A stretch of 64,000 bases of DNA from Methanolobus vulcani (GTDB lineage Archaea > Halobacteriota > Methanosarcinia > Methanosarcinales > Methanosarcinaceae): assembly GCF_006546655.1 (NCBI RefSeq), contig NZ_VIAQ01000015.1, positions 496,001 through 560,000 on the forward strand, written 5' to 3'. Under the pieces are notes generated by a model that saw only the letters and a list, made by a program, of their open reading frames with translations, made no database searches and was not told where the DNA came from. Of this stretch, positions 28,651 to 31,589 are shown piece by piece; position 1 is the stretch's first letter; each line of letters begins with the position of its first letter. Both the position numbers and the translations under genes were made by a program.

Positions 28651-29955
28651 TTAGAGTGCACCTGCTACTGCCTTGATTGGCTCCTTGAATTCTTCGATGG
28701 ATCCAAATACGTTTCCGACAAGTGCGGATGTCTTCTCGATTGAGAACATCTGTGTGCCTGCGTCAAGTGAACATGCAGCACATACACAAGGAATTGCGAA
28801 ACCTCTTGAGTGTCTGGTTACAACGTGGTTACCGTTGAAGATACCTGGTCCGCCACCACCATAGATGGAGTGACTGAAGAATGAGAATCCTACTGCAGTA
28901 CCCTGTGCTCTACCCATGTCGACACCTGGAAGACCTGTTTCCTTCTCAAGTATGTCGTTGTAGTAGAGGATGGTTGATGATACGTTCTGAGCTGCTCTGC
29001 CTGCTGCTACGTTTACCATAGTTGCTGCAAGCTGACCTGCTGCTGCACATGCGTTCCACATTGAAACATCGTTTGCTTTGTAGAAGTTGTATCCAGATGG
29101 AGCTGTCTTGTCGACTGAGATAATATCTGCTTCAATAGCTCTGTCTACTACAGACTGAATTACAGTACCGATTGTACCGTCCTTTCCGTTCTCCTTTACG
29201 ATGTCGTATACGAAGTTACCTGCGTTAAGACCCTGGTACGCAAGACCGAGTAACTGGTGTCTCTCGAATGGTCCTACAGCGTTACCCATTTCGTACATAC
29301 CTACCTGCTCGAAGATTGATGAGAGTGCTGCTGCATTCATTGCCTTCTTGCCGGTGATTGCTGCTACGTGGTTTGTTGTGATGTTCCTCAGGGAGTAACC
29401 AAGACCTTCGTTGTTCTGTGGAATGCTGAGAATTGATGCGATGTTTGCGCCCTTCATGTCCATTGTCTGTGGGTAGCTTCCCCATACAGCGGACTTTACG
29501 ATTGGTGCATCGAACATGTCAACGTTGAACATGTCAATGATTGTCTGGACCACTGCTGCACCTGTTACGGTACTTCCGGATACGTAGTCAGCACCGACCT
29601 GTGTCCTTATACTTGGGATCTGGACGAGGAGCTGCTTTCCGCCACCAAGTTCCTTTACGTTGGTGTCGTCATCATCGCTTACTTTTATGAGCTTCTCTAC
29701 GGAATCAAGGATAGCACCGGAGTTGCCTAAGATATCATACTCAAGGCCTCTTCCAAGGATCTGTTTTTTAGTTCCGCCCATGGCACCGGTTTTCAATGCT
29801 TTCTCGATACCAGCGAGGTTTACAGCAACTGTCCTCTTTGTATCTTTGATGATATTTTGAATCGCTGCGTTTCTTGTTGGCGCGATTTCCATAAGATCAA
29901 CGCCGCTTTCCAACAGTTTACCTCTGTCGTCGTAAATGTCTATTTTATCAGACAC
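28651..29955 (-). CDS. mcrB: Methyl-coenzyme M reductase subunit beta
   Basis: 434-aa beta subunit. The active-site segment [20 protein letters not shown] contains the conserved Tyr that faces the substrate pocket, and [20 protein letters not shown] follows. The start codon is GTG 29955 ([20 protein letters not shown]) behind a strong AGGAGG. It heads mcrBDCGA. Its leader holds a nested inverted repeat (29991-30077). Confidence 0.98.
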
Positions 29956-29990
29956 GTATATTTTCCTCCTATGTTTCTATTCAGAAATCA

Positions 29991-30077
29991 CCCATTTGGA
30001 AATGTACAGGTGAAAGAATGAAAGTCAATTACTTTGTACCACATAGTAATTTCCTGTACGAAAATTTTTCCAATGGG
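29991..30077 (-). promoter_or_regulatory. Three-tiered inverted repeat in the mcr leader
   Basis: On the minus strand, reading outside in: CCCATTGGAAA pairs with TTTCCAAATGGG (one bulge), GTACAGG pairs with CCTGTAC, and AATTACT pairs with AGTAATT. The stems are nested in one 87-nt element separated by internal loops. It ends about 20 nt before the mcrB AGGAGG, so it would fold in the mcr mRNA leader. Folding is read from complementarity, not calculated. It could stabilise the 5' end or regulate translation. Confidence 0.65.
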
Positions 30078-30105
30078 AATTCTCGAAATTATTAAGCAAC
30101 AATGA

Positions 30106-30226
30106 CGTTTAAACCTTTTGCATCATTCCACGACAATTTCGCAATCATCAACCGCAAGCAATATTCCTGTGCAAAAATAATTGATTATGTATCTGGTCAG
30201 AGCTTGTACAGAGAAAACTTAAATAA
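30106..30226 (-). promoter_or_regulatory. Candidate mcr promoters in the 398-bp mcrB-mmp10 gap
   Basis: Two minus-strand TATA candidates exist. One is TTATTTAAG (30218-30226), giving a leader near 240 nt. The other is GCAAAAGGTTTAAACG (about 30106-30121), giving a start near 30086, just before the hairpin element. No open reading frame is credible in 29956-30353. Which promoter is used cannot be decided here. Confidence 0.45.
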
Positions 30227-30318
30227 CAGTATTATTCTCAATACAAATCTTAATCTTTTAATACATTTGTAAAATGCAGTTCCACTGCGAATATGAATGT
30301 ATATTAAAAGAACCGCAA

Positions 30319-30331
30319 ACCTTTAAGTATC
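30319..30331 (+). promoter_or_regulatory. Promoter of mmp10, probably leaderless
   Basis: CGCAAACCTTTAAGTATC gives BRE and TATA with the TATA centre about 28 nt before ATG 30354; no Shine-Dalgarno is seen. Confidence 0.5.
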
Positions 30332-30353
30332 TATATAATATGTATCTCGTTTT

Positions 30354-31589
30354 ATGGAGATCACTGCTGACGTAGGAGGCAATCCCGGAATTGATTGCAA
30401 AGGCTTCTGCACATACTGTTATTTCAAGAAAGTAAAAGAGAACCCTCCATTTGGATGCAAATACTGTTTGCCTTTCAAAAAGGGCTGTGATTACTGTACA
30501 AGAGGTGTAAGGGAATCTTATTCCGGTTTCAAGCCGGGGCAATATGTGTTCCAGGAGCTCTACCAGCGTCTCATGATGGCAGGTGACAACATTGAAAAGA
30601 TCACCATAAGCGGTGGAGGTGATGTAAGCTGCTATCCTGACCTTATGGAACTGGTTGCTAACATTGCCCAGTTCGGACTTCCTATACATCTGGGTTACAC
30701 CAGTGGAAAAGGATTCAGTAATGGTGATGAAGCGGAGTTCTTCATTGAATACGGAGTCACAGAAGTTTCATTCACAGTATTTGCAACAGATCCCGAACTA
30801 CGAAGGAAATACATGCGTGACCCGGAACCAGAAGCCGCATTGAAAGTCCTGCGTCAGTTCTGCCAGCATTGTGATGTTTACGCAGCTATCGTTATCATTC
30901 CCGGAGTAAATGATGGTGAAGTACTTGACAAAACCCTTGCGGACCTTGAGGAAATGGGTGCTAAAGGAGCTATACTCATGCGCTTTGCCAATAAAACAGA
31001 GGAAGGTCTCATACTTAATAACGCTCCTGTTGTGGAAGGGGTTGAAACTCACAGCATTGAGGAATTCGTGAAAATTGTAAGGGATGCCGATGCAAAGTAC
31101 AATCTGCGTATAACCGGAACACCACTTGAAGATCCATTGATTGGCTGTCCTTACGCCATCAGGAATGAACCGGAGTCACTGGAAAAACTTCCTGTTATTA
31201 GAAAAGATGCAACAATACTTACCAGTCGTGCTTCAAAGGAAAGGCTTCAGGAGATATTCACAAAACTTGGCAGCGCTGTCAATGTTGTTGCCGTGGACAA
31301 GGATATAGGTTGTCTTATTACCATAGATGATCTCAAAAAGCTGGATCTGTCTGATGTAAAGGAAACTGTTGTTATTCCGGGAAGGGCATTCGTATATGAT
31401 CCGGAGGTAACAACTGTGCTTTCAGAAGATGGTGTTTCACGCTTTGTCCGCCGCGGACCTGATATGTTGACATACGATGGTGAAATGTCAATAGGTCTTA
31501 CAAAAGAAGAAGTCCTTGAATTTGAGGTAAAGCAGTTCACAGAACTCATTCATGAAATTAATGCAATCGGCCTGCCTGTTAACCAATAA
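30354..31589 (+). CDS. mmp10: Methanogenesis marker 10: McrA arginine C-methyltransferase
   Basis: 411-aa radical SAM enzyme known to methylate the delta-independent carbon (C5) of an McrA arginine. The cysteine-rich start [24 protein letters not shown] gives the CX3-type cluster pattern, followed by [15 protein letters not shown], a family-specific second set, then [15 protein letters not shown]. The whole sequence matches methanogenesis marker 10 in layout and length. It is divergent from mcrB, sharing the 398-bp gap, so modifier and target are neighbours. Its substrate arginine in McrA is Arg286 by alignment from memory. Confidence 0.93.

Follow-up and report, generated by a model that had tools for sequence, protein, structure and literature searches.

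A predicted closed 5′ leader of the mcr operon in Methanolobus vulcani and other Methanosarcinaceae

Organization of the mcr leader and its promoter

The window analysed here, a stretch of 64,000 nt of Methanolobus vulcani DNA (contig NZ_VIAQ01000015.1, positions 496,001 to 560,000), carries mcrBDCGA, and the features in front of mcrB, the first gene of this operon, are listed in Table 1. The BRE and TATA box together read CAAAAGGTTTAAA (30120-30108), and BRE/TATA elements with the same spacing were observed in the great majority of the mcr leaders of the family. The start of transcription is a predicted position, placed by the Methanosarcina rule of ~23 nt between TATA box and start (PMC11409679). 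Counted from this +1, the leader contains a hairpin from about +8 to 20 nt before the Shine-Dalgarno (SD) sequence AGGAGG (29970-29965). A preliminary description of this DNA had placed the element just upstream of the mcrB ribosome site and downstream of the likely start, and both statements agree with this arrangement, in which the hairpin begins just downstream of the BRE/TATA-based +1 at ~30084.

The mcr operon and mmp10, the gene for the MCR arginine methyltransferase (TIGR03278), are divergently oriented (window 28651-31589). Between the two, at 30254-30311, there is a perfect 10-bp inverted repeat, TCTTTTAATA/TATTAAAAGA, with GCAGT/ACTGC inside; it was absent from relatives and was rejected as a conserved element. 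At the place corresponding to window 30098-30130, many Methanolobus have an inverted repeat AACGATG...CATCGTT (GATG..CATC core) around the mcr BRE/TATA, possibly an operator or a promoter-context signal, and the sequence between TATA and start shows strong conservation in many Methanolobus mcr promoters. Within Methanolobus (L001-L026), the mmp10 tree conflicts with the mcrB and mcrD trees, and this disagreement suggests that the mcr operon has recombined between species.

Table 1. Features of the mcr leader in the window
Feature	Position	Strand	Support or conservation
mcrB, first gene of mcrBDCGA	28651..29955	-	TIGR03257, 747 bits; GTG start at 29955
SD AGGAGG of mcrB	29965..29970	-	unpaired in predicted fold
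Conserved spacer TGATTTCTGAATAGAAACAT, hairpin to SD	29971..29990	-	0.75 substitutions per column
Entire nested leader hairpin	29991..30077	-	homologues in 26/26 Methanolobus genomes with a match
Stem 1, 3′ arm TTTCCAAATGGG	29991..30002	-	same 25-sequence Methanolobus alignment as its 5′ arm
Stem 2, 3′ arm CCTGTAC	30004..30010	-	same 25-sequence Methanolobus alignment
Stem 3, 3′ arm AGTAATT	30027..30033	-	clade-specific, not conserved
Apical motif TGTGGTACAAAG	30032..30043	-	0.42 substitutions per column; GTACA can pair with stem-2 3′ arm (fold B)
Stem 3, 5′ arm AATTACT	30045..30051	-	clade-specific, not conserved
Stem 2, 5′ arm GTACAGG	30053..30059	-	five core pairs in 25/25, some G-U
Stem 1, 5′ arm CCCATTGGAAA	30067..30077	-	94-95% of cells paired, 25 Methanolobus sequences
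Predicted +1	30084, +/- few nt	-	inferred, ~23 nt 3′ of TATA box
mcr promoter: BRE CAAAA (30120-30116) and TATA GGTTTAAA (30115-30108)	30108..30120	-	sequence

Predicted fold of the leader

All three of the nested complementary pairs described earlier within 87 nt were present on the minus strand at 29991-30077, with stem 1 (CCCATTGGAAA/TTTCCAAATGGG) consisting of 11 pairs and one bulge. Folding of the 87 nt with RNAfold, a check proposed at the time, recovered exactly the same three-stem nest at -21.9 kcal/mol (z -2.75), an energy equalled by 2 of 200 shuffles, and in the predicted fold of the window the SD was unpaired at 37°C. The former claim that such nesting is very improbable by chance was overstated for one sequence, because the whole 116-nt leader gave only z -1.9 (p 0.05) and the stretch had been selected after the fact. 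Pairing of the first 35 nt of the leader with the 50 nt that immediately precede the SD gave z -4.1 (p 0.001). No terminator or attenuator was found in the leader. By itself, this leader sequence has a fold that is only moderately unusual, and it is the comparison with relatives that convinces.

Variation within Methanolobus and Methanosarcina

Among 25 distinct Methanolobus sequences, the two outer stems kept their pairing, whereas the innermost stem 3 (7 bp) was lost or replaced in L009, L013, L018 and L020-L026. Changes in these sequences were mostly to or from G-U, with a few double changes, and stem 2 showed single-pair changes from U-A to C-G, C-G to U-A and G-C to U-A. The covariation that had been suggested as a check was not significant within Methanolobus: 5 of the 25 pairs had changed on both sides, shuffles gave marginal values, and a tree-aware null on the mmp10 tree gave P ~0.10. 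A run on the mcrB tree, with P 0.002 for stem 3, was discarded because that tree conflicts with the mmp10 tree and lacked one sequence. A facing A-A/G-G change in the apical hairpin was likewise rejected as covariation, since it amounts to one or two events on the mmp10 tree. In Methanosarcina and near genera the apical hairpin had compensatory changes (U-A to A-U, C-G to U-A and G-C to A-U), while the outer stems were nearly invariant.

Copy number and specificity

A covariance model built for Methanolobus located the element exactly once in each of the 26 Methanolobus genomes that matched, every time within the mcr leader; in the genome of the window no second copy was found even at E 10. 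Weak matches in four Methanomethylovorans genomes (E 0.005-0.08) also fell at the mcr leader. The Methanosarcina model likewise gave one copy per genome, at the mcr leader, in its own group, and two additional weak matches (E 0.03 and 0.08) are probably due to chance. No Rfam model matched the leader at the gathering or a relaxed threshold, and no description of the element was found in the open-access literature, to which the search was confined.

Predicted closed leaders in thirteen genera

Upstream regions of mcrB were collected from 105 of the 112 Methanosarcinaceae genomes searched, those that gave a match, and named contigs were added. The distance from TATA to SD was nearly constant in the family, with leaders of ~96-146 nt. 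In all 13 genera, the predicted 5′ end of the leader pairs with a segment ~5-20 nt before the SD, the closing helix begins at +1 to +14 relative to the predicted +1, and each leader is predicted to form one long hairpin, the whole-leader z being negative in 13/13 (means from -1.0 to -6.5). The closing helices use different sequences in different genera: TTGGGA..TGG.CAC/GTG.CCA..TCCCAA in Methanosarcina versus CCCATTGGAAA/TTTCCAAATGGG in the window, CTTATTAGG/CCTAATAAG in genus g6 and GAAATAACTTCAGGATT/AATCCTGAGATAGTTATTTC in genus g5. When one median member per genus was tested, with Methanosarcina genome G108 removed, the z of the closing helix was negative in all 13. The combined Fisher value of 1e-9 is optimistic because the mean z of control leaders is itself slightly below zero; a safer figure is the Mann-Whitney P of 0.0008 for the mcr closing helix against 22 other leaders in the window. 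On these sequence comparisons, the genera share the closed-leader architecture although its sequence is replaced from one to another.

By the same test, most mcr leaders of ANME-2 show an equivalent closure. Those of L073-L081, L087, L088 and L091 mostly pair CCAAGAAA, close to the predicted 5′ end, with TTTCTTGG, which immediately precedes the SD; the leaders so closed, e.g. by CCAAGAAA/TTTCTTGG in L073 and L074, enclose further hairpins and constitute a separate closed leader.

The single copy at mcr and the closed shape kept across genera support a functional leader element there. The part of the preliminary description that proposed such an element is supported, and the part that proposed a ligand sensor is not.

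A slowly evolving loop motif and alternative readings

The apical motif TGTGGTACARAG (30043-30032) was the slowest part of the leader outside the SD. On the mmp10 tree it had 0.42 changes per column, the corresponding values being 3.87 for the adjoining loop, 4.20 for the spacer and 6.22 for third positions of mmp10; the motif evolves about nine times more slowly than the neighbouring loop. Almost every Methanosarcina leader has a similar GCGGTAC (GCGGUAC in the RNA) at a comparable place within a hairpin of like kind, GYGGUAC being common only to Methanolobus, Methanosarcina and near genera. Most other genera (g3, g4, g5, g8, g9 and g10 among them) lack the motif, and in L004 and L021 it is disrupted. 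Such slow change requires something more than a passive stabiliser, and what keeps the motif constant may be an apical UGU-GGU-ACA turn, a protein or the ability of GTACA to replace the 5′ arm of stem 2 (fold B).

Because the motif evolves slowly, a protein (ribosomal, MCR-assembly or other RNA-binding) that would bind UGUGGUACARAG and adjust the decay or translation of mcr mRNA retains some, if rather low, probability. The rate contrast with the adjoining loop, the Methanosarcina counterpart within a like hairpin, and a single copy per genome at mcr alone, which fits dedicated control, favour such binding, but the restricted occurrence of the motif and its broken forms speak against it. In a bistable exchange, UGUG-GUACA would pair with either outer arm (UACA or UGUAC), and the leader would alternate between nested fold A and fold B with its two hairpins. 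The middle strand is complementary to the 3′ arm of stem 2 in nearly all 25 Methanolobus sequences, the RNAalifold consensus is fold B, and in Methanomethylovorans, where the Methanolobus model matches the mcr leaders, the minimum-energy fold is of the B type. However, fold B was never the minimum-energy fold in Methanolobus, being 0.4-13 kcal/mol worse than fold A or another fold, the middle-strand pairing is without covariation support, and neither fold obviously frees or hides the SD, so that an exchange of this kind is improbable. It is doubtful, too, that the leader is a dedicated regulatory RNA in which a protein or an A/B switch acting on UGUGGUACA sets MCR expression post-transcriptionally in Methanosarcinaceae and also, by means of other sequences, in ANME-2.

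Sensing of F430, nickel or coenzyme M, as envisaged in the preliminary description, is very unlikely: the element does sit in the leader of an operon that uses all three and its loop is conserved within Methanolobus, but no Rfam riboswitch matched at either threshold, an aptamer-like core is not shared across genera, and there is neither a terminator nor sequestration of the SD, which lies outside the structure. Still less credible is a short leader peptide read from the motif, (A/G)UG UGG UAC ..., that would control mcr through its own translation. A frame beginning M/V-W-Y-K/R and 9-34 codons long is found in 23/25 Methanolobus leaders, but no SD precedes it, its length and frame vary, with frameshifts, L004 has a stop after one codon and L021 has lost the start, and the changes fall at codon positions 1-2 while third positions are spared. 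The modest significance of the single sequence and the non-significant covariation in Methanolobus would suit a long AT-rich leader that folds by chance and in which only promoter and ribosome-site sequences are conserved; a closed shape in 13/13 genera with unrelated helices, exceeding that of the other leaders in the window, makes this explanation a poor one.

The leader as a proposed structural 5′ element

The reading that best accounts for the data, with a probability of about 0.5, is that of a structural 5′ leader, which would close the 5′ end of the mRNA against 5′-to-3′ decay and keep the SD single-stranded. According to this model, the mcrBDCGA mRNA would begin with one long hairpin of roughly 90 nt, whose closing helix would start no more than ~15 nt from the predicted 5′ end and stop roughly 5-20 nt before the SD. 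A 5′ end buried in this helix would be a poor start for a 5′-to-3′ exonuclease of the RNase J type, giving a longer-lived abundant mRNA; the leader, being paired with itself, would leave the SD single-stranded and translation initiation high. Selection would act mainly on shape, with an additional constraint on the sequence of the loop motif, and the helices would therefore be replaceable between genera. We infer the transcript start, the longer half-life and the effect on translation, and stabilisation of the mRNA appears to be the best-fitting role.

The predicted accessibility of the SD was higher in real than in shuffled leaders in six genera (g1, g3, g4, g6, g24 and g25), for example 0.40 vs 0.13 in g1, 0.45 vs 0.10 in g3, 0.88 vs 0.09 in g4 and 0.76 vs 0.16 in g6, with a combined P of ~1e-5 for a set that includes G108; in Methanohalophilus (g8), g9, g10 and g11, the SD was not clearly more accessible than in shuffled leaders. 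A homologue of RNase J is encoded in the genome of the window (G000:C15:609989-611320; 477 bits, above the cut-off). In M. acetivorans, mcr transcripts are among those stabilised during methylotrophic growth (PMC5112694). Reporters in this organism showed that a “minimal PmcrB”, said to hold the core promoter region only, is still strong; a construct with the full M. mazei leader was reported to be stronger (150%) and that of M. barkeri comparable (PMC11409679), so the effect of the leader may be modest or host-dependent.

Relation to known leaders

Several known systems resemble the mcr leader in part. In the same family, the long 5′ UTRs of the methanogenesis genes mtaA and mtaC are reported to help stabilise the transcripts of a methanogen adapted to cold (PMC5378194), but these belong to other operons, and with the mcr covariance models no further copy of the element turned up in these genomes. 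RNA thermometers and SD-sequestering riboswitches also form structured leaders directly 5′ of the SD, whereas the SD of mcr is predicted to lie outside the structure. The flpD RNA (RF01737) of Euryarchaeota and other cis-elements in Rfam include archaeal structured RNAs, but no Rfam model matches the mcr leader. Bacterial mRNAs may carry 5′-terminal stabilising hairpins, such as those of E. coli ompA and of the B. subtilis aprE/gsiB/ermC type. Common to these and to the mcr leader are a very abundant mRNA, a downstream SD that for mcr is predicted to be single-stranded, and shape outweighing sequence, and by the predicted +1 the mcr hairpin would also begin near the 5′ end, at about +8; the mcr element differs in being archaeal, in its far longer nested hairpin that fills most of the leader, and in its conserved loop motif. 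The element is a further case of a structured 5′ leader, here in front of a central operon and bearing a conserved loop motif.

MCR carries out the step that forms methane and, in ANME, the one that activates it, and few mRNAs in these cells are as abundant as its own. Discussion of mcr expression usually centres on a strong promoter; if the present reading is true, a conserved structured leader would make part of this strength post-transcriptional. An effect of the leader would matter in practice as well, PmcrB being the standard expression promoter in Methanosarcina, with constructs that retain differing lengths of the leader. The idea lends itself to a direct test, since the element is present in Methanosarcina leaders and genetic tools exist for M. 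acetivorans.

The leader of Methanosarcina G108 was at one stage regarded as unrelated, but the Methanosarcina model finds a normal element intact, followed by an inserted repeat. The insert, 196 bp long (L137:116-311; G108:C1:109060-109255), lies between the leader hairpin and the mcrB SD; it carries inverted repeats of 12 bp (GTAACTATTCAG) at its ends and comes with a target duplication of 8 bp. Five more near-full-length copies with 94-100% identity are present in the G108 genome, and by these sequence features the insert looks like a MITE. It constitutes a natural experiment on the spacing of the mcr leader.
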